A DNA stretch of 64,000 nt from Parietichytrium sp. I65-24A (Eukaryota > Sar > Bigyra > Thraustochytrida > Thraustochytriidae). How positions within the stretch are numbered: position 1 is the first letter of the stretch; the number at the start of each line of letters is the position of its first letter. This document shows, one piece after another, positions 7,793 through 59,332 of the stretch. The stretch lies in the NCBI GenBank assembly GCA_012862575.1, contig BLSF01000064.1:62001-126000 (forward strand). The letters run 5' to 3'. The translations under genes and the position numbers were made by a program. The notes under the pieces were generated by a model that saw only the letters and a program-made list of their open reading frames with translations, was not told the origin of the DNA and ran no database searches.

Positions 7793-10099
7793 TCAGAAGG
7801 CATTCGCACTGCGTCGAAGTTGGAGACACTCCGCACAAGCCTCTAAAGCCTGGCAAGAATTTTGGTGAGCAGCAAGGCACTTGATTTCGTATGGCACGAT
7901 GCCCCCCTTTGAGGACACTTTCTCTGAGCACTCTGGGCACTGTCGAACGGAATTCGCACACGATTTGTGATAGACATCCGAGCACTCACAGGAAAAGCAG
8001 ATAGAGGAGATCAATAATCTGCCAATTCTATCACTGCCGTTCGCCACAAATTTCATTTTGCAAGCAGCGCAACGTCTTGTGAGCGAATCAGACTTTTGAT
8101 GCAAAACTTTGTCCATCAGCGAGTGTAAATAATTGCGGGGGTCCTCCCCGGTGTCATCCGGCTGTCGAAAGTTTCGAACCCACATGTCGTCAATGTAAGC
8201 GTCCCGACGAGCAAAATCTCCGTGCTCTTGCATCCACTTCTCATCGTTTGCAGCAGACACCCATTCGTAGATGGCAAGAAGAATCGAGGGACAGTCATTG
8301 AGGTCTTCGTAAAACTCCGGAGCGATCTCGCGAAGCTTTGGGTACATGACAGCAGGAATCATAGGAAAGTCGTGGTGCTCCACATGCCACAGTTCGCCAA
8401 AGTTGAGGACATGCCACAAACGGGAGCCGCTATAGGTCACTGTTGGCTGAGGCTGCTCCGTAAAAGCACTCTCCATGCAAAGCGCGCTTTCAAAGGAAGC
8501 ATGAGATGCCAATTTTGGTTTTCGCATGGAATTTTGATGCTGTATCAACCAAAAGCCAAGGTAGGGGTGACAGAAAGCTCCGAGCGAGCAAGATGCCGAT
8601 ATCCACAGAAAAACAATCCCATGTAGACCTGCCAACCGCCAGCATAGCACATTCCCTAGCAGCATCATCCCCTCGTACTCAATTGCAAGCCTGTGCGCTT
8701 CGTCGAGAAGCACTTTTCTTACAAGAAACATTGGGAAGAGGAAGGTGGGCACAACTCCGCTCCACAAAAACCGCGCTATTCGATTGTTCGCAAGGTCAAG
8801 CGACCACTTGACCTCATTTTGCGCAGCCGTATACAAATCATCATGAAAGTACTCCGACCAGCGCAGTAGGGTAGCAGATGATGTCCAGAATTTGGGAAAC
8901 CGAAGCACAACCGAGAATGAGGGCGGGGATTGCCACGGCTGAAACAAAATATCACCGTCTCGGTCCTACGAACCAAAAGGCACACTGAGGTCAGAAGCGG
9001 TGGAAGGGGACATCATTGAAAGGAAAAGGGCACAACTTACAGCATCGGACCCAGTATACGCATGGTGATATGCATGATAGCGTTGATAGTACATTGCCCA
9101 TGGAAAATTACACAACGAGGAGGCCACTATCATAGCCAAGTAACTGGCATCTTGATGCCTGTACACATGACTGAGATCGTGGTTCAGAGCCTGGAACCCA
9201 TAAGCCACCCATGACCCGACAGTGACAGCAACCACGAAAGTAGTCAGCCCACTTTGCATACGACCTAAAATATAAATTATGATGAAGTGGAGGCAGACGA
9301 GAGCAACCAAGAGAACCGCAAGCTTCGCCCCTGTACCGGGATTTCCAGAGTTCTCTTCCATGAGCTGGCGAATTTCTGGGTGGCAAGCAAGTATTCTTTT
9401 CCGTCTGGCTCTGTGCCAATCTGCAGTTGTGAACGTCACGGCCAAGTCTGGCAATGGCGGCAGGGCCACCGGGGCATCCGCCTCTTCCACTTTCTCTTCA
9501 TTATACGAATCAAGATGCTTCTTCGCTGAAAGCATGTCGCTCTTTGCCAGTTGATCGGCGCCGATAATCACCATGACATAGGCTCGAATCTGATAAGCCC
9601 TGGCCAATTTAAAGTCGTCAATGCGAAGGTATCTGCTACATCGCATCAGCTGCTCAAAGCTTTGTAGGGTTGTCGTCAGCTGTCCGAGTCCCAGGCAGCT
9701 GTGCATCAACAAGCAGTATGCCGCTCCGCAGCAGACTGATACCCAGTCCGGCAAGCTCTCCCGCGCGTGGCCAGCGGCGCAGTGCGTACGCTCCAGACTC
9801 TCTAGCATCCCGATCGCCTCTTTCGCCACCAGCCTGGCGGTCTCGAAGCGCCCATCGTCCAGCAGCAGCAGCCCTTTCTCCAGCAGCACCGAGGACACCC
9901 TGCGACACTTGATGTATGCCACGTTCGCTCTGCTCGCGCGCTGGAAGTCCGACACCGAGAGTCCCAACGCGCACAGCGCTCCTTCGCTCACGCTACTCAG
10001 CGCGCTCAGTGAGTCGCCTTCTTCTGCGCCGCACTCCACTTTGCATCCCACTCCCGCGGACACCTGTCCCCCCGCGCTCTGAGCGTCCTCGCACACCAT
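7793..10099 (-). CDS. Sphingolipid delta-4 (dihydroceramide) desaturase fused to a helical-repeat N-terminus and a C-terminal zinc-type Cys cluster
   Basis: Two exons, 10099-9041 and 8965-7793; the intron 8966-9040 has GTAAGT and TAG ends and joins 'TGSDA' to 'DRDGD' in frame (743 aa). The core matches DEGS: entry motif 'ADWHRARRKRILACHPEI' (about 227), histidine boxes HDLSH (307-311), HAYHH (342-346) and HVEHHDFP (547-554), then 'LREIAPEFYEDL'. The family inserts the 4,5-trans double bond of ceramide at the ER, using a di-iron centre fed by cytochrome b5. The residue equivalent to His in the usual 'GHF' string is Phe here. Unlike the usual roughly 320-aa enzyme, it has about 215 N-terminal residues of TPR-like helices and, after about 650, a CxxC...CxxCxC...HxxxC...CxxC cluster resembling RING/PHD zinc folds. 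Both extras share exons with the desaturase. The ATG at 10099 follows a GA tract; an upstream ATG would translate it. Confidence 0.88.
8966..9040 (-). other. Intron of the desaturase gene
   Basis: 75-nt intron with donor GTAAGTTGTG and acceptor TTCGTAG followed by G. Removing it restores one continuous desaturase frame between the second histidine box and the 'DRDGD' segment. Confidence 0.9.
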
Positions 10100-10112
10100 C
10101 CGCGCCTTCCGC

Positions 10113-10151
10113 TCTCTCTCTCTCTTTCTTTCTTTCTTTCTCACTCTCACT
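10113..10151 (-). repeat. (GA)n/(GAAA)n purine tract before the desaturase start
   Basis: C/T-only on the + strand, hence GA-rich on the coding strand, ending about 15 bases before the chosen ATG. Confidence 0.8.
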
Positions 10152-11331: not shown

Positions 11332-12873
11332 CTAGAGAGGCGGAACTCCATCATAAGGGTAAGCTTTGATGCAGTACACTTCATAAACAGTATTGGTCAA
11401 AGAGCGGTTAAGCATGCACAAGCAGATATCGAGCCCCTCGCCTCTGCATGGGGCGAAAAAGTCTTTTGATCTACATATGAGCTGGAAGATTGACTGGAAC
11501 GCAAAGGCTGAACAGAGCGCAATTGCACTGGTGAACACGACCCCTCGAGGCCTGCTTCGCCAAGCTCGCAATAAGCTAAAACCTTGCCTCTGCTCCATAT
11601 GGACGCAGATTGTGTCAACAATTCCCTCGGAAACAAATTGGAGCAGACCCCAGGATAGAATAGTTGACATGTCAACCGAATTGCTGCTTTCCAAGGCCTC
11701 GCGATACCACGGCAAAGGAGCATACAGTGGCCGAGAGGAGTAGACTAGCAGAGTGGCCGTCACAACTACAATACTCGAATACTCGCAGACCATGTCAATC
11801 ATAATTAGCATTTCGTAAAATCCATTCTCCCTCTTCAGCATTTCTGCAGTCATCCCCTCTTCGCCCGAGAAGCTGTCACTTCCGACAGGCCTGATTGCAA
11901 TGGTGGACTTTGATTTTCCCATTATGCGCCTCAAAAATTGATCGCGTTTTCTCAAAGATACCCTCGTTGCAATCTCGAGAACCGCTTGATACGCAGCGAG
12001 TGAGATCAAAAAGTATGGATCTGGAGAAACAGAAATTTCGAACCGGAAGAACAGAGAGGTTGCCAGTTGAAACCAAAAGTAGAAGCCCCAGATGTAATGG
12101 GGTTGAGGATCGATACCGCTCCCGGCATTAGATTTGAAGAGAAGAAGGCTCCTCGAACACCATAGAGAGGCATATCTCATAAGCTCCCTCGCGAGCGGAT
12201 AGATGATGCCAAATTTAAACAATGTTGTAGTTGTGTCTTCGCCAGGAAGTAGGATTCTCATAGTGGTCACGCATGCCACCGCCGACACCATCACAAATGA
12301 TTGAACCACGCACAAACCCGGGAGGCGGCTGTCCCTGGGCAATGTCAACTTGAAAATAAAGCCAAAACTTAGCGGCACAAAACCTGCCCAGTACGTGCGA
12401 TAAAATGAGTTTCCCATGTATGTCCCGACATAGGCCTGCAAGCAACAATAGACGAAGCTCAACACAAGAGCCAAACGCCAGGGAAATGCTTTTCCCAGAT
12501 AAAGCATTGTGATCATCGGCGTGATTAAGTACATGGGGAGAATCCCCAAGGGTAAATCTGCAAGATCATTCTTCGTTCTTCTCTCGAACGAGTCTTGCAC
12601 GACGGAGAGCGACCTGAGATCTGAGAAACTTGCATTGAAGAGAGCGCTGTTCTTGGAAAACTGGTGTTGAAAGACGCTGTCCCAAGCCAAGATTACAACA
12701 GGGGCGAGTGAGATGTAAACGGCGCTCACGAACACCTCCCCGGAAGTTTTCAAACCCACACGTAGGCTGCGGACCCAGTAATCACTCAGGACCAAGGGCT
12801 GGCTTGCGACAGGGCCAACACGGCCTCTGGTCTCATTGGAGGACGGGGCAGTGGAGGCGGGGTGTGTGCCCAT
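11332..12873 (-). CDS. Multipass membrane protein, tandem paralogue A
   Basis: Unrecognised family. The 513-aa single-exon protein has a hydrophilic N-terminus and about ten hydrophobic segments. It is clearly homologous over most of its length to the next gene upstream on the same strand (13673-15232). Shared strings include 'LPRDSRLP', 'FGIIYPLARELMRYA' (versus 'YGLIYPVVREAMRYC'), 'SPDPYFLIS' and 'RRDQFLRRI'. A central basic loop follows 'RKRD'. Near the C-terminus both have a 'D.IC...EQR.G...LRA....RPRG' segment, then a last membrane helix and a short Cys-rich tail. Transport or scaffolding is possible, but no catalytic motif is visible. The start is the first ATG. Confidence 0.85.
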   Translation of the reverse strand: MGTHPASTAPSSNETRGRVGPVASQPLVLSDYWVRSLRVGLKTSGEVFVSAVYISLAPVVILAWDSVFQHQFSKNSALFNASFSDLRSLSVVQDSFERRTKNDLADLPLGILPMYLITPMITMLYLGKAFPWRLALVLSFVYCCLQAYVGTYMGNSFYRTYWAGFVPLSFGFIFKLTLPRDSRLPGLCVVQSFVMVSAVACVTTMRILLPGEDTTTTLFKFGIIYPLARELMRYASLWCSRSLLLFKSNAGSGIDPQPHYIWGFYFWFQLATSLFFRFEISVSPDPYFLISLAAYQAVLEIATRVSLRKRDQFLRRIMGKSKSTIAIRPVGSDSFSGEEGMTAEMLKRENGFYEMLIMIDMVCEYSSIVVVTATLLVYSSRPLYAPLPWYREALESSNSVDMSTILSWGLLQFVSEGIVDTICVHMEQRQGFSLLRAWRSRPRGVVFTSAIALCSAFAFQSIFQLICRSKDFFAPCRGEGLDICLCMLNRSLTNTVYEVYCIKAYPYDGVPPL

Positions 12874-13672
12874 CCTCTTGCGCTTGCCGGAAGCTGTTTC
12901 ACACTCGCAGACCGCGTCATATGCAAACTACTCTCATTCTTTTTGTGGCTCTCCAATCGTGGCTCGAAAGTTCATCGGCCATCGTACCCAGCTACCGGAA
13001 CAAGAGTAGTACCTCACCTTGCCGACTTGGCATGCCTTGACTGAGAGCACGGTTTACAAGTTTCGCGAATTCTACTTCTTCACCCAGTTGCCCTTATTGT
13101 GTTAGGTTAGGTTAGGGGTATTCGGTATTCTCGAGTGGTGCTGACCAGCTCGTGCCGCTACAGGTATTCACGACTACTCCTATTCCGTTGACTGGCCACG
13201 CACGATCAAAGTCGAACCAGTCAGTGTGAGGGAAGCTCGGATTCCCAAAGAGATTCCCGAAGGTGACTGAGAGATGAGAGAGAGATGGGTCCAAGTCCGG
13301 TTTTCAAAACTTTTAGTCCAAGTCCGAGTCCGACTCGAACTTACTTCGAAAGTGTGGACGCGAACGGATCGTACTATAGTATATGGTATGAGGCTTTTAT
13401 GAGTTGAAGTGCAAACTCGACGTAACGGTAATGATTGATTGCCCCGAGTGTAAAAGGTCGTGCAGCTCAGTGGCGATTTCTGAGCGCAGTACGATAGCAA
13501 CACTGAGAGAGGCTCGGCATTGTAAGACCCGGGTGGCATGTTGTGCGACTTCATGGATTTTAATAGGGAGGAGTTTTGCTATCTATCGTTTGCGTGTCAT
13601 GGTTTGAGATCACCTTTTCAGAACATGTTTCGAGGATGAAAGCAGAGGCTATTGTCAAAGATTATGGATGCT
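12874..13672. other. Intergenic region between the tandem paralogues
   Basis: Apart from the telomere-like string, nothing coding is convincing here. It should contain the promoter of paralogue A and the 3' UTR of paralogue B. Confidence 0.6.
13102..13118 (+). repeat. Short telomere-like TTAGG/TTAGGGG repeat
   Basis: The string TTAGGTTAGGTTAGGGG occurs once in the gap between the two membrane-protein genes. Three units are too few to prove a telomeric origin. Confidence 0.5.
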
Positions 13673-15232
13673 CTATGGCGCAAGTCCTGTCGAATTTTTG
13701 AGAGTATGTAAACAGAACAATTCAGGGATCGACAGCGTACTTCCTTGCGTGCTGTTGGACATTGCAGAACTTTCGAGGCAATCACAGATATAAAATCCCA
13801 CGGAATCGCTACACTCCAAAGTGAACTCCAAGCTATTCTCCGCTAAGATCGTCACGATGCAAGAGCTTACAAATAAGACGGTGACGGCGAGAACCAAAAA
13901 CCACTTTGCGCCACGAGGCCGCTCTTCGAGCGCTCTGACAATGTCAATTCCGTCCCTTTGCTCGTAGTAGATACAGAAACTATCCACCAAAAATTCACTC
14001 AGTATCTGAGTCATACCCCATGCCAAAATACCCCAAGAAGAAATCGGTGCAAAGTCTTCATTGAGAAGCTGGATATACCAAGGGAAGCTGGCTACCAAGG
14101 CATAATTTTGGAGTAGACTTAAAATCAGTGTCACAGCTAGAATTCCTGTGTACTCACAAATCATATCCGCGAGGATGACATTGGCAAAATATTGGTTCTC
14201 AAGAAATGTCGCAATATGGTCACCACTTTCGTGATGCTTGGCGATCACCGATTGAAGAGGTTGCGGTGCCGGGGCAACAGATTGTCTATGATTTGCCCGA
14301 TTGGTTCTAAACAACCTTGATAAAATCTTGTCCCTGCGCCGCATCGTTGTCCTCAAAACGACCTCCAACACAGTCTGATGTATGGTCAAGAGAGTAAGAA
14401 CAGCTGGGTCTGGCTTGGATGATTGCTCAAACCTGAAAAACAATGCACTCGAAAGTTGAAACCAGACGTAAAATGCCCAGCAATAAAAGCCATTTGGACG
14501 TATCCCCTTTCCTGCACTCTCCTGGTCGACGATTAGGCTACGCGATGAAACCATCGCGCAATAACGCATGGCTTCTCGGACTACAGGATAAATCAAGCCA
14601 TACTTGAGAAGAATCCAATATGAGTCGTCCCTCGATATGGTTTGCAGAATTCTAATGACCCCGGCGCTTCCGATCATAACAATAGTCTGCAACAGGAGCA
14701 TTTTGGGCAATCGGCTATCCCTTGGAAGGGCGATTGCAAACAGAAGAGCACAAAGTGGGGTCGGAAGAGCCACACTGAAGTAGTCCACCTCTTCGTTCTC
14801 AATCCATCCTTGTGAAATAGCAGCGTCGAGAGCATTGATAAGGACCAAAACTAAAACCAAGACAATAGTTCCCGAGAGGGTGCCCAAGTACAGCTTGCAA
14901 ACCAAGGGGGTAAATATATAAAGAAGAACATTGTTGACGAGGAATTGTCCCAATACTTCCCCAATACTTTTCGCCTCGCTTGACGGGTGCACGAAAAAAT
15001 CTTTCCCAGCAAATAGATCTACTTCCGTGGCATCGAATTTGACGCTAGTAGATTCATCCTGAACAAGGTGAACACCTATGAATGCACCGATCAACGATAC
15101 GATCGACAGCACAGCTGAGTATTTGAGAACCTGAAAAGTGGCGATGATGCTTGTCTGCGAAGCCTCTTGAGCGCTCTTGACCGATGCCGAGCTACGCACA
15201 CGCTCAGCTATCCCTTGGCCAACGAGGCCCAT
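13673..15232 (-). CDS. Multipass membrane protein, tandem paralogue B
   Basis: 519-aa, intronless and in the same orientation as paralogue A (11332-12873), 800 bases away, so a tandem gene duplication. It has about ten predicted membrane segments. The conserved core runs from 'LPRDSRLP' through 'LLKYGLIYPVVREAMRYC', 'FYVWFQLSSALFFRFEQSSKPDP' and 'RRRDKILSRL', with the same C-terminal 'EFLVDSFCIYYEQRDG' and 'RPRG' block. Sequence divergence, loop length and N-termini show the copies are old, not recent. The Cys-rich tail after the last helix is kept, which suggests a disulphide-bonded or metal-binding outer segment. No known transporter or enzyme signature is visible to me. The start ATG at 15232 is the first in frame. 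Confidence 0.85.
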   Translation of the reverse strand: MGLVGQGIAERVRSSASVKSAQEASQTSIIATFQVLKYSAVLSIVSLIGAFIGVHLVQDESTSVKFDATEVDLFAGKDFFVHPSSEAKSIGEVLGQFLVNNVLLYIFTPLVCKLYLGTLSGTIVLVLVLVLINALDAAISQGWIENEEVDYFSVALPTPLCALLFAIALPRDSRLPKMLLLQTIVMIGSAGVIRILQTISRDDSYWILLKYGLIYPVVREAMRYCAMVSSRSLIVDQESAGKGIRPNGFYCWAFYVWFQLSSALFFRFEQSSKPDPAVLTLLTIHQTVLEVVLRTTMRRRDKILSRLFRTNRANHRQSVAPAPQPLQSVIAKHHESGDHIATFLENQYFANVILADMICEYTGILAVTLILSLLQNYALVASFPWYIQLLNEDFAPISSWGILAWGMTQILSEFLVDSFCIYYEQRDGIDIVRALEERPRGAKWFLVLAVTVLFVSSCIVTILAENSLEFTLECSDSVGFYICDCLESSAMSNSTQGSTLSIPELFCLHTLKNSTGLAP

Positions 15233-15879
15233 CCGAGCCTTTCTTTGCTATCGCTTCGAGAGCGATGGCCAGACGCGCAACCTGCGAATACTTTCTCGTG
15301 CGCTACACCACCGATTCTCGCCCTTGCGGCCCGAATCCCGCCACACCTCATTCCCTCGCACTGCTGACTGCAAAGGATACCCGTATGAGTGCCGCAGCGA
15401 GTGGCGATATAAAGACAAGCAAAACACCAAGAGCTCCCCTTTCAAGTTTGCACAACTGGTGACTTGAGCCCAGGTAGCTCTTGACTCTTGATTCTTGACT
15501 TTTGGCGTTTGCACACAGCTTCGGCTTTAAAGAGCATTACATTGACCGACTGGGTGAGTACCAGCACAGTAGCCTCATTATCACTTTTCCGGTACCGGCT
15601 TTTTTGTCACGACGTCGACCTCACAGATCATTGTCGAACTTTCTGCGAGGTCTGAAAGCACTTTCAGGTAGCCCATCTGTTCATCCAATCTGTTCGAAAG
15701 TTAAAAAAGCAGCTGTCATGAGCCACAATGTCTTGTGCAGGGAGATACCGAGCCACGTTTGCTGAGTCGCGTCTCATCAGTAGCGCTCACTACCCATCAT
15801 ACCCAGCTTTTGCAAAGCCTTGAGCCAGAAGTATAATCATACCAGGAAACGCCGTTGCATGTGACAGATACTTATAGCA
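15233..15879. other. Intergenic region upstream of paralogue B
   Basis: Probably the promoter and 5' UTR of the 13673-15232 gene. Several short overlapping ORFs have no homology I can see and are most likely chance. Confidence 0.55.
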
Positions 15880-47221: not shown

Positions 47222-48118
47222 TTCTCTACTAAAGCTAGCCTTCGCGAAGGGCACAAGAGGAAGGGCTCCGATCAGAGTTTACATTTCCAAGTTCGGTATC
47301 GGAGTTATTGTCAAGTTATTTCATTTTTTCTATTACAATCGAATTTAGAAACATAGTTTTGCTCAAGTCCGTCTCATCTCGCTTGCTCAATTTCCCACCC
47401 ACCCTTTCACATTTCCTGACTTACCAGAATTACGCAAAGGTGTACTACTAAATAGGCTAGGACTCCTCCGACAACAGTACTAGCTCACTAGCTCCTTGCT
47501 TAAGAGTAGTGGGATTTAGTGGGACCGTGGCAAACATTGCGTTCCTCAGACGGCACCCTCCCCACTCAACCGTCAGGAGAATCTCCTTCCTCTTTCCCCA
47601 AGTCGCCGGCTTCCCTCAGCAGCGAGAGGGTCCTCGCGTTGGGTTCCGCAGAAAGCAGAAGGAACGGGACCTACAGCTTGCCGCTAGCTGCGGCTACGGA
47701 CTGTCCGCTCTCACGAGAAGCTCTGATACAGAGAATCCCCGGCCGGCGTGGGCCACTGGGGTCGATCATCTATCTCTCCAACCTCCCAACATCATCAACG
47801 CACGTTTGCGGAGCTCAAGGAAGAACGAGGAAGAACAAGGAATTCGGTTCGCTTGGCAAGTCAATCGCCTTGATAGACTCACGGCCTGAGGCCGGCGAAG
47901 ACAAGTTGCAAAGGTTTTCGACTCTGCGCGACTGAGTGGCTCGGAGTCCTGCTCTAGTGTGCTAGTTCCCATCTCTCTTTGTTTCGCATTCCTCGTTTCA
48001 CTTTGCCTCACGTGTCATCGCCGACATTGCGGGAAGAGAAACATTTACAAACAAACAAACAAACAAAAGGAAGAGTCAGAGAGAGATAGAGAGATACAGA
48101 GGAAATTGTCACGGAGCC
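47222..48118. other. Intergenic region
   Basis: 3' flank of the SAC3 gene and the probable promoter and 5' UTR of the giant gene. ACAAACAAACAAACAAAC at about 48052-48067 is followed by GAGAGATAGAGAGATACAGAGG to 48102, just before the ATG. Confidence 0.65.
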
Positions 48119-51100
48119 ATGTCAGGAGCAGGAGCATTAGAGCGCATGCAAGATGCGATTGAAGGGCTTGCCGGACATGCTCCGTTGAACGCAAACAACG
48201 TCAAGCACGCACTAGAGCTGGCGAGACACGCAGAGCCTTCTTTTCGTGAAGCGGCTCTGCGCAGATTGTGCGGCGCCACTGCGGAGGTGTGCGAGTTGCT
48301 GGACGGGTCGCTCGAGATGCAGAGGACGCTCGTTGCAACTCTCAGCGACGCGGCGGCGGCGGACGAGCTGCAGAGGAATAGATTCCTGGCGTGCATCGTC
48401 GTCGGCAGGGTAATGCATGTGGTAATGGATAGTGAAGCGATTGCGATGGCAACGAGGGTGTGCGCACCAGCTGCCTTTGACATGTTCTGTAAAGCATTCG
48501 AAAAACGCGATGGGGCACTCTGTGTGCTTGCAGTCTGCGCCTTTGCACCATTTCTGGAGACGACCCCGGAGAGTGTTGAGAGCGAGGCCCGGCTAGGCAA
48601 ATTTAAGAAGGAGGCCTGCAACATCTTAAACTCAATGTGCGCCGGATTTGAGCAGAGTAAAGATCAAGACCTTCAAAAGGGTGTCGGAAACAACACTTCT
48701 ATGCAACACCCTGCGCTGGTTGCTTGTATCTTGCGAAGCGTCCGGGAATACGTCATGGACTCCCCAAAGAGACGCAACCAGCTTATTGAGCCAATGCTGG
48801 CTTCTGTGCGTAAGCTCTTCGTCAGGCGTGGGACGAAAGGCTTAGAGAACCGAAAGTTACCTTCAACACTGCTTGAAGAAGCAAGCTGGTTCGTCTGCAA
48901 GTTTTGGGTCCAGCCTCAGGACACATTTATCAAGTCGCTGTCAAAAGGATTTGTTCAGCAACTCTTGATTAAATTCGGGCAACGAGCACCAAGTCAAACG
49001 ACGGTGTCCGAAGACGCAGAACTGAAGGACCTTTTCTATCGCGCCAACATATTGAGAGAAAAGTTGATGAAAGATTCCGGCGCGTTCAAGTTCTCAGCAC
49101 AGGTGCAGCAAGGTAAGAAAAAAAGGCTGGAAGCGCTGAATCTGCGCCTCGGACCAAGAGGCGGATACATCGTCAGAAAGTACCACTCACTTCAGAACAA
49201 ACGTCGAGGCAGTCTGCATTCCGGGTCGGAGATGCTGCTGCAACAGGAGGAAGAAGAAGATGACGAAGAGATTCTACCTCAAGAACTCGATGCCAAGCTC
49301 ACTTTTAATATTACCCGGCAGCTTATTGTCTTCTCGGGTCAGGAAACAAGTATTACGGTGCATCTCACGAATCGCTCCTCAGTGTCGCCAGAAGTCTTTT
49401 CGATTCAAACTCATCCTGCAGAGTTCTTTTTTGCAATTCCAGCTTATGGAGTTATTCAACCGGATTCTTCTCTCCCCATTCATATTAGGTTTGTGCCACA
49501 GATGCGGCGCAAAGGCTTGACTTGCACACGGCTGAACGGATTTTTACGGGTGCGAAGTGTGGACGGCCTTCCCGGTGAGAGGGTAGGACTCTCCGCCTTT
49601 CATGGCCCGTTGCTGAAAATATTTGACAACCACATCGATTTTGGCTACTTTCCCTTTCTGCTCCGAGCGTCTCGCGGCCCGGGTGGGAAGACGGTACCAT
49701 TTTTTATTTCAAACGAGTCGCCAGTGGCGTGCAATTGCAAACTTTCTTTTGCCAAGCCAAACTCGGCCTTTGCAGTCTGCAGACCGTATCATCTTATTTT
49801 ACCTGGACAGCGATTGAAAATCGAGCTTTCCTTCAAGCCGACAGAGGCGAAAAAGTACGCCGACACTCTGCTAATCTCAGGCGTCGGTGGAGAGTTGCAC
49901 AAGGTTTCTCTTCTTGGACATGGTGGGGAGCCATTATTCGTGCCGGAAAGTGTGGTAGACTTTTCACTATTACCCGGCCAAACTGGTACATGGCATCAGC
50001 GTGCGTTCCGGGTGGAGAATGTTGACGAAGGAAAGAGCCTTCCCGTCAGCTTTATTTCAAGCGATCCGAACCAACTGGTCGTGTCAAATATCGAGCTCGG
50101 GCCAAAGCAGTCCCAGACTGTGATGGTGCAAATTCGGCCGCAATTTCAGGGAGAGCTCAATCTGGACTTTGCAGTAGTAGCTCCGGACTCCCGCCCTTGT
50201 AAAGTGAAGATCACAGGCTTTGTGGGAAATCCGATCACGCTTCCTATCGCTCGCGACGTGTACTTGCCGGTGCAGACCACAGGAGTGCGACAAACCTTCC
50301 AGCTCCCACTCGTAAACTACACCAATCACCGCACAGAGTTCAATCTGGAGTCATTAGGCTCCACCGCATTTTCATTTGCGGTATGCAATCATGCACATCC
50401 GCATGGAGCTCCAGTCCAACAAAGCTCGTCTTTTGTTCTGGAGCCTTTTGAGACGGCGAAAGTGTTGGTCGGAGTACTGATAAATCAGCCTGGCCTCTTC
50501 CGAACTCCAGTTCGGATTGAGGTATACTTTCCAAACCGCCTTAGTCTGGGACCCTGGTACATCATGTGCCCGTGTGTTGGGAAGGCAATTAACGTGCCGG
50601 AGGAGCGGTCGAATCACAAAGCTATGCACTTTTCGGAGTTGTACAGACTAGTAGCGTTTCAGGCGGGGGATGAAGCTTCGGGGCAAAATGACAAGTTGTC
50701 CGCCTCCAACGAATTTGAGAGTGATAGTGACGATGCAGAAGAAGAAGAAAGCCAAGCAAATCATGGCGATAGCGAAAACCCACAAGACGTACACAATCCG
50801 ACCTCCGAACAGGCTGGGCAGCCCACCCCGCTCAAGCTGAGCCAGGCTATGATAGCCATGTACGGTACAGGAAGCATTCACTCCCGTAGACAACCGGCAG
50901 TGGAAATTGAATTGAGAAACTGCACAGGGAGGCTTCAGGAATTTTTCATTCTGGTCTCTAAACCGTTCTACATGCTCAATTCCACTGGCGTGGATTGCTT
51001 ACTTGACGCGCATGACACGATGACCTTGCAGCTTCGTATGGATCCTGCAGCTGGGGATTCAGCTGCTCCGTATGTCGGTTTCCTCTGCGTGTTGCAAAAG

Positions 51101-54100
51101 ACAAAGTCTCGCCTCCATGGGTTCAGATTGGTCTGTTCAGCAAAGATAATCGGGTCCAGAAACACAATGGTGTCGGTCTCAGCAAACGATGGGCCAATTT
51201 GCATTCCAGGGAGCGTTGTAGACGCTACAGAGCAAAAATCTTTGTCGATACAGAATATCACGGATGAAAGCATGACAATCACCGCCAACATACAAGTCGC
51301 AAAAGCTTCCCCATTTGTCTTTGATTCAACGGAGTCTGTCACGGATCAATTTGAGCTACGGCCATGGGAAACGCATGTTCTGGCCATCCGTTTTAACCCC
51401 AAAGTTCAGGGAAAGTTTTCTGCACCGTTTCAGGTGTGCTACGCAGACCCTTACTCCAAGGAGGACGGCCCTACGGGCTCCGAAACAGGAAGTCACGTCG
51501 CACACTCTTGCATGCTCGAGGGCTCGGCGAGCAGCGTTGAGATTATTGACATTAACCCCGACGAAATTATTGACTACGGCGAGATATCAGTTGGACGTAG
51601 AATTTCGCACGAAATCGCTGTGGAAAACTTCTCGTTTCAAGATGTATCCGTAATGGGTGCTGCAAACGGCCCGTTCGTGCTGTGCGGTGACTCCAGATTC
51701 ACCGTGCCGCGGGCAACCAAGTCATATGCAGCGAAGGGGGATGAAAAGGCGCTCTCGATCTCTATGGTGTCGAGCATGTCAAAAATGGACTTAATTCCGG
51801 GGAGAAACGACCTGCGTTGTATGCTCTTGGCCAAGAAGCCTGACAGTTGTCTCAGATTTGCGAGCTTTATTGTTGACAATGATTTCTCGCACACCAAAAT
51901 CGTAGCTCTTCGTTCTCGGATTGGAGTCGCCAGATGCATTTCCAATTACGGATTCCCGTTCGAGACCATCGTGTCTCCGTCTGTGCTAATGGAGGGGGAA
52001 GAGGAGCTCGAGGTAGAGGACGATGCCGACCTCGGAATTATCTCCATGAGAGAGTCCGCGTCTGCCCTTAACAGCGGCATTATCGATTTTGCCGTGGTGC
52101 ATACCGGTACTGTCGAGCTGCACACCAGAGAGCTCGTTGTCACCAACAATGGAAGCCGGTCCATTGTAATCACGAAAATCGAGTCCACATCCGCACAACT
52201 CAAATTCAAGGTGAAACCTGAACCCAGAGTTAGCGTCATAGGAATGGAGCAGGCTCAACTGGAACGCCATCTTGAATCAGTTCGTCAGGAGGCCATCGCG
52301 TTTGCTTCTGATCTCCAGGAGCCGCTCTCGGTATCACGAATGGACCCGCTCCTCATTTCTTCTCGCGAGGACGCCGACTTGTGCTTGGATTGGGATGAAC
52401 TCGACTTTCAACTCTCAAAAGCTGTTGACGAGGCTTCTTCACTCCTGAAGAAGCAAACCTCCGAAGCAAACAAGCCCAGAAAACGACGAAGGTCTCAAGT
52501 CGGAAGAATTAACATTGAGTCATTGGACACACGATCCGCAATTAGCTCCAAAAATGAAGAAGCTGCACAGGCGATAGGGACACTTTCGGCGCTTATGCAA
52601 GAGCGTCAGGCACAGGCAGGTGTATGCTCGTTTCCGATACGCGTTGACGAAGGAAAGTCTCTACGAATGGATCTTGAACTGGACTATGACGAGGAAGAAG
52701 TTGGCGAGTTTTCGCAGGATCTGCAGATTCACTATGAAGATATTGGCGCGGTCCAGGACTCTGTCTTTGTATTTCGCATCATCGCCAAGTTTCAGCCCCC
52801 GCTAGAAGTGACGTGCCAAGAAGATGGTGTAAATTTTGGGATAGTAGGACTTGGAAATGTTTCTTCTTATATTGCTGAACTCAAGAATGTCGGTGTAGAG
52901 CCAATTCATTGGTCAATTGATTTGGATCAATACGGAGCACAGCCCGTGGAGGTTGAGGGTTTAGAAGGCGAGGAAAAGCGGAAACATAAAACAGGTGCAT
53001 CCCTTGCACAAATGGAAGCTGCGGCCAGGGAGGCATTTTCTGTAATGCCTGCGAAAGGAAGTATCGAGCCCGGACGATCTGAGAAGGTAAAGTTTGTATT
53101 CTCTCCGTTAAAAAGCGCTTCCGACCTAGAGCTGTTCTGCAAGGCTGCTCTGATCACGAATGTATACTCGAGCGGAGGCGCGCCCCGCCCGTATCGCACG
53201 GAGTTTGATGTTGCTGGGAGAGCTGGACTCGCTCACGTTTTCGCTTCAGCGTTGCCCCGGAGAGAGCTCATTAAGGCAGTGGTGAGTGCAAATGATGCTG
53301 CAGAGGCTGGAAATCGCACGGAGAGTGTGCTGCTGAATTTTGGAGGAGTGAAAACAGGTAAAAACAAGACGTTGAACTTGTATTTATTCAATGAGGGAAA
53401 CATGAATGCTACTTTTAAAGTGCAATGTGCCTCAAATAGGTTTGTTTTCGATCCGGCAGTCGGGGACATCGCTCCTGGAGCGGAGTTTCCAATCGCGGTG
53501 ACGTTCTCCCCCAATTCGGACCGTACCTGTCGATCACGGGTAATTATCAAATGGGCTTCAGAGAGTGGGAACAGAGACGCTCAAAGGACCGACGAGGAGA
53601 CACTCGACTGTATCTTAGGTGAGACGCTGGAGGCCGAGCTTAATGGCCATGGCGGCCAGCCCAGACTTGATGTGCGACAGTCTGAAGTCGACTTTGGTTG
53701 TGCCATTCTTCAGAGCGAGAACGAGGCCCCATTAACGATTCATAACACTGGAACCGCCGAAACGTTTGCTGCATTCAAACTGCCCACGAAGAGCGTATAT
53801 GTCCGGAACTCCAAAGGTGACCTGATTGATAGTCTATCAATACCTTCCAAGTCTTCAGTCACAGTGAATCTAATCTTTCATCCCGAGAGCATCGAGGACT
53901 TTTTGGAGACGCTTATAGTTCACAGCCTGTACGAAGGGGAAGGAAAATTTCACGTGGAGGTGATGAGCACAGTGGGAATGCCCGAGCTTGCAGTGACCCC
54001 TGAACGCGCGCTAGACTATTTGAATTTTGACGTTGCTTTGATCAAACAGACGCACGTCCGAAGCTTTACAGTAACGAATATTGGCGACGTGGACTTGCCT

Positions 54101-57100
54101 TTTGAGTGTGCCTTTCTACAGCCGACCGAGGGAGCGAAGCAGCGTAAGAGTCGCAATCAGTACCCGTCCGCGGAGAGGCTAGGACATCGCCGCCAAAGCA
54201 CCTCGGGCGCGGCGGGTGGCAGAGATTCATCAGCTCAATCTCGCGATCGGCCGTGGCTTGAGCTCTACAAGGTGCCAAATGACTTTGAAGTGTGCGATCC
54301 TGGAACGATTTCAGTAGAGCCCAAGAAGGGCGTTTTCAGCAAGGGTGCAATGGTTCATTTCACGATTAGTTTTGAGCCTGTGGAGCGCGAAAAAGAGAGC
54401 CGTGTGCTTCTGGTTTTGAGAAACAAGTTCAAATCCATATTCGCCGAAGTGCGCGGCATCGGAGGGGATCCGCTACTTGAGTTGGACTCCCCGCTTAAGG
54501 TAGTCGACTTTGGGCTATGTCAAAAGGGCCAAGAGTATCATAAGACAGTCAACGTGATGAATGCTGGCAACATAGGATACTCTTTCAGTGTGCTTCCTGA
54601 TCCGAACGACGAAAATTTACGGTCAAGTATGCAACAGTTGGGGTGGAATGGGGACTATTCAAGGTTGTCATCTCTGGCTGCCGAAGACGAGAATGATCCA
54701 AAGGCACGGCAGGATATGGAAACCTTCTTCCGCGCTCTGTCGCGCTTTGGATTTTCCCTATCGTCGTCCAAATTTTGCGAAGCTTACTCGACCAGCCCAA
54801 TAAAGGTGACCTTCAACCCTCCAAGGAACAATATTGTGGATGAGAGCAAGGATCAAGACACTGCCGAATGCAGAATCCACATCCGCCATGCCACCGGCTA
54901 CGAGCAAATTACTTTAAGAGGCCGTATTGGGTACCCTCAGTTGCAAGTGTATGAAGTGGACGGAACTCCATTACTTGACTCAGAAATTGACTTGGGCACG
55001 TGTCCAATCAACCAAACTTTCAAACGCAGCTTTCTGCTCCACAATCCAGGCAAAATTCCAGCTATGTTCTTTGTAAAGCGAGATCTGCCTCAGGAATTAT
55101 CACTTATCCCTATGGATGGGAAGGTTGCGCCTGGAGAATTCTTTCCTGTCGAGCTAACCTTTCAGCCCTTTATGAACTGTGAAACAATTTGTAAAGCGAC
55201 TGTCGTTTACAACAACAACAGCTCCCTTTCACTTGGCCTGCGCGGCGTCGGAGGCAGCGGGGTGCTAGAGCCAGAGTTTTTGTCGGAGCGCGATAAGCGC
55301 CTTCAAGGGCTTGACTTTCAATTAGTAGCAACTGGAATTCCTGTGGAGAAGCGTGTATTGGTACACAATCGTGGGCAGGTCCCACTGAACCTCATCGCGG
55401 AGACGTCTGCTTCGCACTACACCTTGCAAAAGATCCTTGAGAGTAGTATACATGAGGCTGTGCCGGGATACAATAACAAGCTCTTCACCTACCTTCCCGG
55501 AAACGACAATGCCTCTGTCAATAACAGTTCTATGCGACGAAGAGGTGATAAAAACAGCAGCATGAAAGTCACTCGCAAACAAAAGTTGCAGAGGAGGATG
55601 AGCAAGCGAGAAGTGAGCATTGATCACCGACGCTGGGAAACCGCCGAGAGCCCAGTTGTTGAGTGTACCCTGCAGCCCAATCACTTTGCAGTTCTGCAAG
55701 TTGTGCTGGTCGCCGAGAAGGAGACTATGTACACAAGCTTGTTGAAATTGAGAAGCGAGTTTGACTCGATCTCTATTCCCCTTCGCGCGAGAGGAGGAAT
55801 CGTTCGCGTGAGGCATAGCGGGAATCTGGACTTTGGAAATATTGCGTGTGATCATACCTATACTCGGAAGATTCAGCTCTTCAATGTCGGTTCGATTCCA
55901 ACTGGAGTGGAGTTGTACTGGAAGATGCCCTTCGGATCGCGAGAGGCAAGCGAAATTGCCCAGTCTGCGGATATTACAGGTACCGTCCTTCTGAGAGGAA
56001 CCTCCACACATCTCGGCCGAGTGCGGTTATGGCACTGGGCAATCGAGAATATCGTGAATGCGGTTCGCGCCGAGCGAGCTGCCTTAGAGAACGCAAAGAA
56101 GAAGGGTAAATCTATGTCCCTGAAGGACCAGCGCGCTCAAGCAAGCTTCAATCAAAAGCATCGCTCCTTCGCTGAAGTGGATTCGGACGAGGAAGAATCC
56201 GAGAGCTCCAATGCTGTTGAAGGGCTTAAAGCTGTGGGTGACCTTGTTGGATCGAGAGTAAATAAAATCATTGAGCGCTTCAACAAGTACCAAGAGGAGC
56301 AAGATAGGCTGCAAGAAGTCAACATGGAGCGCATTGTGAAAAAGGAAACTACTCGCAAATCTGTTTTGCGGGTGAATCGTCTGCAGAGTTTCATTCAGGT
56401 CCAAAAGCCAGGACAACGCCCTGGAAATCCTGTTATTCAGAACATCCAAGAGCAAAACGAAGCTGAACTTGAAGAGAGCGGATTCTCTATTCCGCATCTG
56501 CATGTTACGCCCCGGGAAGGAACCTTGTCACAGCGACTGAGCATGGATCTTACGGTCTCCTTTAATTGCTCAAAGACGGGAAAATTTTCTGCTATCCTGG
56601 TGGTGGCGTGCTCCCTTCCTGGTGTTCCTCTATATGAGATTCCTGTCACTGCAGAGGCCCAGGAGGTGCTTGTCGTGGTAGACGACAATAGCACGATTAA
56701 TTTTGGTCGTCAGGCGCTCGGTGAGTACAAGGCAATATCGAGGACGTTCACCAACAAAGGAACCATGCCGGCGACATTCCGAATTCGAAACATGAATGCC
56801 GACCTCAGTGTGGAGCCATCAGACGGAGTGTTGAATCCCGGGGATTCGGTGTCCATCGATTTCGTGTACACACCAACTTCTGAAAGTCTGTGCGCTTACC
56901 CAGTGTACTTTGAAACGGATTGCACTGCTCCATTGATTCTAGACATTTATGCTGGCGGAGGAAATCCCGAGCTAGATCTGGACCATCATGATAGATTTGA
57001 CTTTGGCCGTTGCATGGTTGGAAAGTCCATCCCCAAGCAGCTCCGAATTGGGAATTCCGGAAATGCAATTCTTTCCATCACTGGCTTTCAGTTCCACGAC

Positions 57101-59332
57101 AACCGCACGAAGTCCCCTTTCGAGAAGGGCGAGTCATGGCCCCACACTCTGGACTCGCAAGATCCGCTGCGAATCGCTCCAGCAGAGAGCTACTACCTGC
57201 CGCTTGTTTTTCATCCCAGCGGCGAGGAGGCTTATGAGTGCGGTTTTACAATTGTCACGACGGTTGGCTCTTTTACCCTTAAATTGACAGGTCTTGGGCG
57301 GGAAGCAGTTCTGAGTTTGTCCGTAAACAGGGTCGACTTTGTAGACTGTATCGTCGGAAACGCGTACCAAAACTGCTTTGAAGTTTCCAACGCAGGGGAT
57401 TTGAACTACCCTTTGGAGGCACAGTTGGTGTCTTTCAGCCAACAGGGTGCAAAATCGGAACCCGGCAAGGACAAGTGGAACATTCTTAGCGACCTGAAAG
57501 TGGAGCCAAAGGCTGCGAATATAGCTCCGTTCGAGAAGCAAGTCATTACTGTGACGTACATTCCCACAAGACCGGTCATGGAGAAACTTGGGCAGGTGAG
57601 GATATCACTTACTTCGATCTACTCGAACTTTGAGATCCCGCTGCGCTTAGTGTCGGGCACAGCAGACCTGCATATCGATCCACCAGAGTTTGATTTTGGT
57701 CACTTTGAGAAAATGAAGCCTGCCGAGAAACTGGTCACTCTCACAAATACTGGTTCAATGTCTTTTGGATTTCGAATCAAGAGGGCAAGCGCGGGACCAT
57801 TCCCCTTCCGACTGTCACGCTGGGAAGCCGTTCTTGGCCCTGGCGACTCGGTCGAAATTGCGTGCATTTACTTGCACCGTCCTGCTCAGCAGGCCGCAGC
57901 TGCAGCGGAGAATGACGGTGTATCCCAGGATCTTTCCGGGGATTTTTGTGAAGAATTGTTGATAGAGACAGACTTGGTGGGCTCGCTTATTCTGATGAAT
58001 GTGAAGGGCTTGTGTGACTCGTCGGAGTTGGACTTTGATGAGCTGAGCCAGATCAAGCTTGGTAATTGTACCGTTGGCGAGCAGGTGTCGAAAACAGTGA
58101 CCGTCACCAATAAGGGGGGCTACCCAGCAGAAGTGCGTTTGTCTCCAAGCTACCCTCTCAAGATCTCTTCCAAATTACTCGTCATTGAGGGTCACAGCTC
58201 CGCCTCCTTTTCTGTACAGTGGAGGCCAATGGGAAGCTATGAGCTTCGGTCGGCCATTAAGGTGCAGTCGAATGTGGGGTCTTTCGAGGCAACGGTCAGC
58301 GGTGTTGGAGTGTATCCAAGATTCAAGCTGGATGGCAATAGGATTGATTTCGGTGTCTGTGCCATTGGGTGCGAGTATGAGCGTCAATTTACGCTTCGGA
58401 ACTGTGGAAAAGTAGAGATGGACTGGTCGATTCCGGCTTTAGCAAACGGTTACTCGGTGTCCAAAATGAGCGGGACGCTGGGAGTTCGCTCAGAGGAGAC
58501 GCTCACCGTCACGTTTAAGCCCCTGGACCTTGGTCGCTACCCGGGCGATTTCATAGTGGAGTCTCGGGGAAGATACAAAATTGTCAGTGTAGTGGGAGCA
58601 GGCGGTCACTTCCAACTCGACATGGAGCCAAAAGTGGACCTTCTGGACCTCGGCTCTGTCCCCTGCAGAACTGCAACTAGTTTGAAATTGCAACTGCGAA
58701 ACACTGGCGCAGTGAAGGCCTGCATCGGTTGGCGCTCAGGAACTTCGACCAAATCGGGATCCAAGGCGTCTCTGCATATCGTATCGCCACGAATTCTACA
58801 CCGAGACGGAAAGGTAGCCGTGTCTCCCAACGACTGCCTCGAAGTCATACTAGCCGTCCGCCCAGGACGCAAGCCAGACCCATTTGAGCTTCGGGGCGAG
58901 TTTTTTTGCCAAGAGAGCTCATTCCCAGTTGTTCTAACAGGGCAGGGTTATGTGATCGACTTGAGGCCTGAAACTCGTAATTTTCTTGCCGCCGAATCGT
59001 TGCAAGGGCTCGCCATGCCCAACCCGCTGACTCTAGACGACTCACCTGATCCAATGGAGGCTGCAGAGAGTCACTTGGAAAAGACTGAAAGGCACAACCC
59101 GACTTTGAAGCATGTCCTTGCACTGCAATGTGCAGCGGATAAGACAGAGGAATTCTTGCGACAACTCATAGCCCCGGTGCGTATTGAAGACCCTTCTTTG
59201 CAGTACCTCTTGCTGCCTCCGGTCCCATTTCTCAGGGGTGTGCCAGGCATGGACGAGCTAGGAGACCAGGTGGGCCCGATCTTGGACTTGCCAGAGCGGA
59301 AGGAGACCAGGCAAGGTTGGGGGCCAGTGTGA
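48119..59332 (+). CDS. Giant ASH/MSP-repeat protein, HYDIN-like ciliary protein
   Basis: 3737 aa in one uninterrupted exon. The first about 330 residues are helical and repeat-like (ARM/HEAT-like), unlike HYDIN. From about 395 on there are around twenty immunoglobulin-like ASH (ASPM-SPD2-Hydin) units, each starting with a 'xxDFGxxxxG...xxxLxNxGxxxxxF' pattern: 'IDFGYFPF', 'GVNFGIVGLG', 'LLNFGGVKTG', 'VVDFGLCQKG', 'EIDLGTCPIN', 'NLDFGNIACD', 'TINFGRQALG', 'RFDFGRCMVG', 'EFDFGHFEKM', 'RIDFGVCAIG'. Acidic and Lys-rich linkers interrupt the array. Animal HYDIN, a long central-pair C2 projection protein, has the same build; CFAP47, CFAP65 and DLEC1 are smaller relatives. It therefore most likely belongs to the axoneme, but the exact orthologue is unsettled. 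A GA-rich leader precedes the ATG. Confidence 0.85.
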   Translation: MSGAGALERMQDAIEGLAGHAPLNANNVKHALELARHAEPSFREAALRRLCGATAEVCELLDGSLEMQRTLVATLSDAAAADELQRNRFLACIVVGRVMHVVMDSEAIAMATRVCAPAAFDMFCKAFEKRDGALCVLAVCAFAPFLETTPESVESEARLGKFKKEACNILNSMCAGFEQSKDQDLQKGVGNNTSMQHPALVACILRSVREYVMDSPKRRNQLIEPMLASVRKLFVRRGTKGLENRKLPSTLLEEASWFVCKFWVQPQDTFIKSLSKGFVQQLLIKFGQRAPSQTTVSEDAELKDLFYRANILREKLMKDSGAFKFSAQVQQGKKKRLEALNLRLGPRGGYIVRKYHSLQNKRRGSLHSGSEMLLQQEEEEDDEEILPQELDAKLTFNITRQLIVFSGQETSITVHLTNRSSVSPEVFSIQTHPAEFFFAIPAYGVIQPDSSLPIHIRFVPQMRRKGLTCTRLNGFLRVRSVDGLPGERVGLSAFHGPLLKIFDNHIDFGYFPFLLRASRGPGGKTVPFFISNESPVACNCKLSFAKPNSAFAVCRPYHLILPGQRLKIELSFKPTEAKKYADTLLISGVGGELHKVSLLGHGGEPLFVPESVVDFSLLPGQTGTWHQRAFRVENVDEGKSLPVSFISSDPNQLVVSNIELGPKQSQTVMVQIRPQFQGELNLDFAVVAPDSRPCKVKITGFVGNPITLPIARDVYLPVQTTGVRQTFQLPLVNYTNHRTEFNLESLGSTAFSFAVCNHAHPHGAPVQQSSSFVLEPFETAKVLVGVLINQPGLFRTPVRIEVYFPNRLSLGPWYIMCPCVGKAINVPEERSNHKAMHFSELYRLVAFQAGDEASGQNDKLSASNEFESDSDDAEEEESQANHGDSENPQDVHNPTSEQAGQPTPLKLSQAMIAMYGTGSIHSRRQPAVEIELRNCTGRLQEFFILVSKPFYMLNSTGVDCLLDAHDTMTLQLRMDPAAGDSAAPYVGFLCVLQKTKSRLHGFRLVCSAKIIGSRNTMVSVSANDGPICIPGSVVDATEQKSLSIQNITDESMTITANIQVAKASPFVFDSTESVTDQFELRPWETHVLAIRFNPKVQGKFSAPFQVCYADPYSKEDGPTGSETGSHVAHSCMLEGSASSVEIIDINPDEIIDYGEISVGRRISHEIAVENFSFQDVSVMGAANGPFVLCGDSRFTVPRATKSYAAKGDEKALSISMVSSMSKMDLIPGRNDLRCMLLAKKPDSCLRFASFIVDNDFSHTKIVALRSRIGVARCISNYGFPFETIVSPSVLMEGEEELEVEDDADLGIISMRESASALNSGIIDFAVVHTGTVELHTRELVVTNNGSRSIVITKIESTSAQLKFKVKPEPRVSVIGMEQAQLERHLESVRQEAIAFASDLQEPLSVSRMDPLLISSREDADLCLDWDELDFQLSKAVDEASSLLKKQTSEANKPRKRRRSQVGRINIESLDTRSAISSKNEEAAQAIGTLSALMQERQAQAGVCSFPIRVDEGKSLRMDLELDYDEEEVGEFSQDLQIHYEDIGAVQDSVFVFRIIAKFQPPLEVTCQEDGVNFGIVGLGNVSSYIAELKNVGVEPIHWSIDLDQYGAQPVEVEGLEGEEKRKHKTGASLAQMEAAAREAFSVMPAKGSIEPGRSEKVKFVFSPLKSASDLELFCKAALITNVYSSGGAPRPYRTEFDVAGRAGLAHVFASALPRRELIKAVVSANDAAEAGNRTESVLLNFGGVKTGKNKTLNLYLFNEGNMNATFKVQCASNRFVFDPAVGDIAPGAEFPIAVTFSPNSDRTCRSRVIIKWASESGNRDAQRTDEETLDCILGETLEAELNGHGGQPRLDVRQSEVDFGCAILQSENEAPLTIHNTGTAETFAAFKLPTKSVYVRNSKGDLIDSLSIPSKSSVTVNLIFHPESIEDFLETLIVHSLYEGEGKFHVEVMSTVGMPELAVTPERALDYLNFDVALIKQTHVRSFTVTNIGDVDLPFECAFLQPTEGAKQRKSRNQYPSAERLGHRRQSTSGAAGGRDSSAQSRDRPWLELYKVPNDFEVCDPGTISVEPKKGVFSKGAMVHFTISFEPVEREKESRVLLVLRNKFKSIFAEVRGIGGDPLLELDSPLKVVDFGLCQKGQEYHKTVNVMNAGNIGYSFSVLPDPNDENLRSSMQQLGWNGDYSRLSSLAAEDENDPKARQDMETFFRALSRFGFSLSSSKFCEAYSTSPIKVTFNPPRNNIVDESKDQDTAECRIHIRHATGYEQITLRGRIGYPQLQVYEVDGTPLLDSEIDLGTCPINQTFKRSFLLHNPGKIPAMFFVKRDLPQELSLIPMDGKVAPGEFFPVELTFQPFMNCETICKATVVYNNNSSLSLGLRGVGGSGVLEPEFLSERDKRLQGLDFQLVATGIPVEKRVLVHNRGQVPLNLIAETSASHYTLQKILESSIHEAVPGYNNKLFTYLPGNDNASVNNSSMRRRGDKNSSMKVTRKQKLQRRMSKREVSIDHRRWETAESPVVECTLQPNHFAVLQVVLVAEKETMYTSLLKLRSEFDSISIPLRARGGIVRVRHSGNLDFGNIACDHTYTRKIQLFNVGSIPTGVELYWKMPFGSREASEIAQSADITGTVLLRGTSTHLGRVRLWHWAIENIVNAVRAERAALENAKKKGKSMSLKDQRAQASFNQKHRSFAEVDSDEEESESSNAVEGLKAVGDLVGSRVNKIIERFNKYQEEQDRLQEVNMERIVKKETTRKSVLRVNRLQSFIQVQKPGQRPGNPVIQNIQEQNEAELEESGFSIPHLHVTPREGTLSQRLSMDLTVSFNCSKTGKFSAILVVACSLPGVPLYEIPVTAEAQEVLVVVDDNSTINFGRQALGEYKAISRTFTNKGTMPATFRIRNMNADLSVEPSDGVLNPGDSVSIDFVYTPTSESLCAYPVYFETDCTAPLILDIYAGGGNPELDLDHHDRFDFGRCMVGKSIPKQLRIGNSGNAILSITGFQFHDNRTKSPFEKGESWPHTLDSQDPLRIAPAESYYLPLVFHPSGEEAYECGFTIVTTVGSFTLKLTGLGREAVLSLSVNRVDFVDCIVGNAYQNCFEVSNAGDLNYPLEAQLVSFSQQGAKSEPGKDKWNILSDLKVEPKAANIAPFEKQVITVTYIPTRPVMEKLGQVRISLTSIYSNFEIPLRLVSGTADLHIDPPEFDFGHFEKMKPAEKLVTLTNTGSMSFGFRIKRASAGPFPFRLSRWEAVLGPGDSVEIACIYLHRPAQQAAAAAENDGVSQDLSGDFCEELLIETDLVGSLILMNVKGLCDSSELDFDELSQIKLGNCTVGEQVSKTVTVTNKGGYPAEVRLSPSYPLKISSKLLVIEGHSSASFSVQWRPMGSYELRSAIKVQSNVGSFEATVSGVGVYPRFKLDGNRIDFGVCAIGCEYERQFTLRNCGKVEMDWSIPALANGYSVSKMSGTLGVRSEETLTVTFKPLDLGRYPGDFIVESRGRYKIVSVVGAGGHFQLDMEPKVDLLDLGSVPCRTATSLKLQLRNTGAVKACIGWRSGTSTKSGSKASLHIVSPRILHRDGKVAVSPNDCLEVILAVRPGRKPDPFELRGEFFCQESSFPVVLTGQGYVIDLRPETRNFLAAESLQGLAMPNPLTLDDSPDPMEAAESHLEKTERHNPTLKHVLALQCAADKTEEFLRQLIAPVRIEDPSLQYLLLPPVPFLRGVPGMDELGDQVGPILDLPERKETRQGWGPV

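Follow-up and report, generated by a model that had tools for sequence, protein, structure and literature searches.

A putative three-part desaturase gene with a DEGS-type core, a TPR-like head and a Cys/His tail in Parietichytrium sp. I65-24A

Desaturases of the DEGS family span the endoplasmic reticulum (ER) membrane, their two termini facing the cytosol, and in fusions of cytochrome b5 with a desaturase the Cyt b5 domain supplies electrons. Human Degs1 is reportedly polyubiquitinated, and the predominance of its native or its polyubiquitinated form is said to govern cytotoxicity (PMC8551130). Here we describe a gene of Parietichytrium sp. I65-24A (contig BLSF01000064.1) in which a DEGS-type desaturase is predicted to be joined in one reading frame to a helical head and a Cys/His-rich tail. 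Coordinates are those of the window, the whole 64,000-nucleotide stretch of DNA that was analysed, residues are numbered along the 743-residue product, and comparisons within the organism's own genome cover 42.5 Mb in 172 contigs.

Gene model and start of the fusion gene

The fusion gene occupies the minus strand from an ATG at 10099 to a stop at 7793, with a single intron and a product of 743 amino acids (aa), and its parts are as follows.

10112..10142, minus strand: GA-rich tract directly upstream of ATG 10099, a gene-start signature by motif counts
9041..10099, minus strand: exon 1, 353 aa, from ATG 10099, with the helical head and the first half of the desaturase core
8966..9040, minus strand: intron, 75 bases, GT..AG, in phase
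7793..8965, minus strand: exon 2, 390 aa, with the remaining half of the core plus the Cys/His tail; TGA at 7793-7795

Both exons are free of internal stops on translation, and the two-exon span of 7793..10099 given in the initial annotation proved exact, with continuous open frames of 353 and 390 aa. Because the intron holds one in-frame TAG, at which an unspliced read would stop mid-desaturase, splicing is needed for the fusion gene, and removal of the intron brings the second histidine box and its sequel into alignment with another desaturase. Four other splice pairs yield a near-identical protein (742-746 aa), and the GT..AG pair 9040/8966 was adopted. The head lies in exon 1 together with the first half of the core, whose other half lies with the tail in exon 2.

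The start codon was compared with those of the long-frame genes in the window and in 20 fetched 10-kb stretches of the genome. The GA-rich tract contributes 18 motif hits within the 40 bases before ATG 10099. At least three such hits preceded 6 of 41 first ATGs (5 of 40 when the fusion gene is excluded) and none of 645 internal ATGs, and counts of 0 or 1 were obtained for the nine ATGs further along exon 1. Within exon 1 only ATG 10099 thus carries the signature, which therefore supports the head and the core belonging together; it is the strongest evidence tying the head to the gene. The proportion of G and C at third codon positions (GC3) also peaks at gene starts, with means of 0.66, 0.61 and 0.58 over 37 genes and values of 0.79, 0.54 and 0.54 in the fusion gene. 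In the codon usage of the head its own frame is the best of six, and likewise in 8 of 9 sixty-codon windows over residues 1-220. As anatomy, the three-part gene model is supported by these sequence features.

GA-rich tracts were also seen just upstream of other start codons. In the window they precede start codons near 4442, 10099 and 45114 on the minus strand and near 48119 on the plus strand, and two more lie on other contigs. Such a tract is possibly a 5′ signature of this genome.

A divergent DEGS-type core beside a plain DEGS

The core was delimited by two Pfam families, both above their curated cut-offs, which place a DEGS-type desaturase at residues 227-574.

9359..9421, minus strand: Lipid_DES (PF08557), residues 227-247, E 3.4e-6, 26.9 bits, cut-off 23
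8303..9238, minus strand, across the intron: FA_desaturase (PF00487), residues 288-574, E 1.4e-12, 48.3 bits, cut-off 29.7
9167..9181, minus strand: histidine box 1, HDLSH, residues 307-311
9062..9076, minus strand: histidine box 2, HAYHH, residues 342-346
8537..8539, minus strand: H496 in IQHQ, a candidate iron ligand aligned where plain DEGS has EHY
8372..8386, minus strand: histidine box 3, HVEHH, residues 547-551
C29:19567-20409 of the same genome: plain DEGS, 306-aa main frame

The three histidine boxes of the initial annotation are present, in the patterns HxxxH, HxxHH and HxxHH, and the start of the Lipid_DES match at residue 227 agrees with the approximately 215 residues said to precede the core. 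H496 is a candidate ninth iron ligand. No Cyt-b5 match to the protein was found in Pfam up to E 1. We assign the core with good confidence, from its sequence, to the DEGS-type (sphingolipid delta-4 desaturase) family as a divergent di-iron desaturase.

A search of the genome with the Lipid_DES profile up to E 1 returned two places, the fusion gene and the plain DEGS on C29, the latter at 21.8 bits, under the cut-off of 23. The best match of the core beyond itself was again C29 (E 4.3e-5), followed by C146 (E 0.18), where positions 7878-8636 encode a desaturase that is next after the plain DEGS as a relative of the core. The fusion core and the C29 DEGS are 29% identical. In the fusion core, box 1 is followed by VYRH (NLAF in C29), FWLIQH stands in place of HFIAEH, and the core is approximately 70 residues longer (388 vs 319 aa over the stretches compared, with bounds chosen by the analyst). 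The residues around the histidine boxes are unlike those of the C29 DEGS, which as a single reference sequence is a weak family criterion. The FA_desaturase score is 48.3 for the fusion gene vs 80.3 for C29, and the Lipid_DES score is 26.9 bits vs 19.0 for the C29 main frame, the C29 piece being scanned without its first exon. The initial description of an intact DEGS core therefore holds for the histidine ligands but not for their neighbours as seen in C29. Ceramide may be the substrate of the fusion desaturase. The 306-aa main frame of the C29 DEGS matched no TPR or zinc family.

The TPR-like head and the Cys/His tail

The two regions flanking the core carry the following features.

9500..9931, minus strand: TPR-like helical head, residues ~57-200, from the predicted model, structure matches and repeat positions
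7928..8071, minus strand: C4HC3-like array C652xxC655-x20-C676xxC679xC681-x4-H686xxC689-x6-C696xxC699, from spacing
7826..7837, minus strand: last CxxC pair, CAEC, residues 730-733

The head is probably a TPR domain, as judged from its predicted structure. The model, built from a single sequence and of low confidence, has helices over residues 61-140 at a predicted local distance difference test (pLDDT) of about 70-85, and many of its top structure-comparison (VIA) rows are TPR proteins, with Z up to 12.9, a range of which the tool warns for helical repeats. The TPR consensus has small residues at positions 8, 15, 20 and 27, and two units of the head, at 76 and 173, carry them there (permutation P 0.00035, with the pattern chosen post hoc); a third possible repeat between these units does not fit the pattern.

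Beyond the point where core homology ends, the tail runs for approximately 140 residues; from residue 610 onward it contains 12 Cys, and CxxC occurs four times (permutation P 0.008, with the motif chosen post hoc). Set against the spacing rules of RING and PHD fingers, the array offers eight or more Cys/His ligands in a C4HC3-like succession, and their spacing would suit a cross-brace. A relaxed version of the pattern was encountered two times among 145,128 six-frame residues (frames of at least 100 aa in the window and the 20 fetched stretches), once in the fusion tail and once in an open frame of 608 aa. Among PDB sequences the tail matches RNF4 RING domains best, at E 0.0032 for a double-RING chain in which each stretch alone reaches about 1, and at E 0.12-0.18 for four single-RING RNF4 sequences; the alignment begins past the first Cys pair of the tail and the His is out of register. 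For the finger region another frame outscores its own in codon usage, a measure of little power since the certain core has equally low stretches, and the structure model of exon 2 (mean pLDDT 37.2) was set aside. The ligand array points to a Cys/His cluster with RING/PHD-like spacing that would bind zinc.

Other candidates were dropped: TAL-effector matches of the tail were, as judged from two alignments, sums of many matches below 5 bits, and the DUF3916, HMBD, UNC-79, C1_1, RH_dom and DUF7463 rows of Pfam, together with the MAPRE1, LASP1, TIGR04500 and DesB rows, either fell well short of cut-off or had E values close to 1. The genome yielded no second copy of the tail and none of the head, for which the one other row was at E 0.35. 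No relatives of core, head or tail were confirmed in viral contigs, nor of the core in phage records, nor in prokaryotic genome contigs queried with a two-sequence core alignment and the plain DEGS, and no papers on such a fusion were found among open-licence PubMed Central papers under a few terms. The fusion may be private to the organism or common in its clade.

Competing explanations, genomic setting and known systems

The explanation that we modestly favour is that one nuclear gene encodes a three-part membrane enzyme, with a TPR-like head, a divergent DEGS-type desaturase and a zinc tail of RING/PHD spacing. Such an enzyme would lie in the ER membrane, its head and tail both cytosolic. 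Through the head it could dock to a partner, which might be a chaperone, a receptor or some other enzyme of lipid metabolism, and the tail could be a further module for interaction or control; the enzyme would work alongside the plain DEGS, not in its place. Several results weigh against this explanation. No Pfam TPR model exceeded its cut-off on the head (TPR_MalT 14.9 and 16.4 bits vs 45), no RING or PHD family matched the tail in Pfam up to E 10 (HMMER filters on) or in NCBIfam up to E 1, and the GA signature is not present before 35 of the 41 first ATGs, so that it supports the start without proving it. Profile searches of the separate parts, as proposed in the initial annotation, hence bore out FA_desaturase and Lipid_DES and left TPR below cut-off and RING/PHD unmatched. 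The helical-repeat head of that annotation survives in its model and consensus positions but not at the Pfam thresholds, and its zinc cluster survives as a Cys/His array with CxxC pairs, for which the zinc-finger families of Pfam and NCBIfam all stay below cut-off. Its suggestion that the head targets the desaturase to a complex would fit a TPR. Ubiquitin-ligase-like control is a guess, to which the Cys/His spacing and a very weak RNF4 RING similarity lend something and the missing family match does not.

It is quite conceivable that the core is a DEGS-type desaturase no longer acting on ceramides, with another substrate or another position of the double bond or hydroxyl, and that the C29 enzyme carries out the ceramide step. 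The low identity to C29, the two replaced motifs, the extra length and the lower FA_desaturase score are all consistent with such a shift, but Lipid_DES is above cut-off and scores higher than in the C29 main frame (taken without its first exon), and the closest relative of the core in the genome is still the DEGS. The locus may instead encode a lineage-specific desaturase. It is unlikely that the head, the tail or both lie outside the mature enzyme, with an internal start (codon 176 or 189), alternative splicing or alternative polyadenylation giving a normal-sized DEGS, in which case the flanks would be read-through or a separate upstream product. Internal Met codons do precede the Lipid_DES stretch, and the codon score over the finger is weak; on the other side, the GA-rich signature and the high 5′ GC3 are located at ATG 10099, and one stop-free exon joins head to core as another joins core to tail. 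An artefact of assembly or annotation that fused unrelated sequences is barely credible, since both joints lie inside open exons in a continuous frame, although the locus is known from a single assembly.

It is distinctly unlikely that the tail works as a genuine ubiquitin ligase of the RING type, marking the desaturase or its partners for breakdown. Its C4HC3-like spacing, so rare among the six-frame residues, and the weak RNF4 similarity would agree with a ligase, as would the reported polyubiquitination of human Degs1 (PMC8551130). Opposed to this are the missing RING/PHD match in both family collections and an RNF4 alignment that starts after the first Cys pair with its His out of register. 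Ubiquitin-ligase RINGs also usually have a hydrophobic residue between the first Cys pair, and the CAAC of the tail has none. The boldest version, a self-regulating ceramide desaturase with its own docking domain and RING-like ligase in one polypeptide beside a plain paralogue, is highly improbable; if true, it would couple sphingolipid desaturation, cellular location and breakdown in cis. More generally, a natural fusion of DEGS, docking and zinc modules would point to partners that in other organisms may act in trans, and would allow control of the ceramide step to be tested within a single protein.

The convergent neighbour downstream of the fusion gene is a Rad4/XPC gene by Pfam, and upstream lie tandem membrane-protein paralogues (minus strand, at 11332-12927 and at 13673-15247; 30% identical across 464 aligned positions), hydrophobic by eye and without Pfam matches. 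On the same strand, approximately 24 kb off with several genes between, frame 34275-35342 matches Pfam Pyridoxal_deC and is a sphingosine-1-phosphate lyase by PDB sequence match (E 2.6e-105 to a bacterial enzyme and 4.7e-93 to 4q6r, sphingosine-1-phosphate lyase 1). This setting hints faintly at a sphingolipid role and could be due to chance. No further sphingolipid genes were matched by Pfam among 20 window frames besides the fusion gene, 6 of the 20 having no Pfam match, and no tRNA or Rfam match was found within the window. Bacterial promoter and terminator patterns were discarded as not applicable to this genome. A 3788-aa open frame at 47966-59332 (plus strand) is rich in HYDIN/CFAP65/ASH Ig-like domains; we take such a protein to point to flagella, which suggests a flagellated organism. 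Six-frame searches of the genome, which are blind to introns, gave no match to phycobilisome or light-harvesting families, and as far as these go the organism appears non-photosynthetic; a red alga as the source was rejected on this result and on the HYDIN/CFAP65-like protein. A polyunsaturated fatty acid (PUFA)-synthase profile gave 13 matches, 0 of them above cut-off, which lends no support to a thraustochytrid possessing such an enzyme; a 5583-aa open frame at C66:8562-22499, with several separate sub-cut-off matches to this profile, is probably a giant modular polyketide-synthase-like gene.

Compared with known systems, the fusion protein shares with the DEGS family (PF08557 and PF00487) a Lipid_DES stretch followed by FA_desaturase and three histidine boxes, and differs in its head of approximately 215 aa, its tail of approximately 140 aa and its longer core; the plain C29 DEGS is the closest relative of the core in the genome. 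Helix pairs of the TPR domains of FKBP51/52, LGN, Sgt2 and Sec72 align with the head model, but the head is without a significant sequence match to them. The tail has the C4HC3-like order of ligands of RING/PHD zinc fingers such as RNF4, but lacks a family match and has a short six-residue loop before the last pair of the array. The genome holds a second unusual desaturase fusion, a 1071-aa open frame at C28 (about 459006-462221) with Cyt-b5 and FA_desaturase after a long N-terminal half that has no Pfam match and appears membrane-spanning by eye. Like the cytochrome b5-desaturase fusions, which comprise the front-end desaturases and in this genome the C28 frame, the fusion protein joins a desaturase to added soluble domains, but here the added parts resemble interaction domains.
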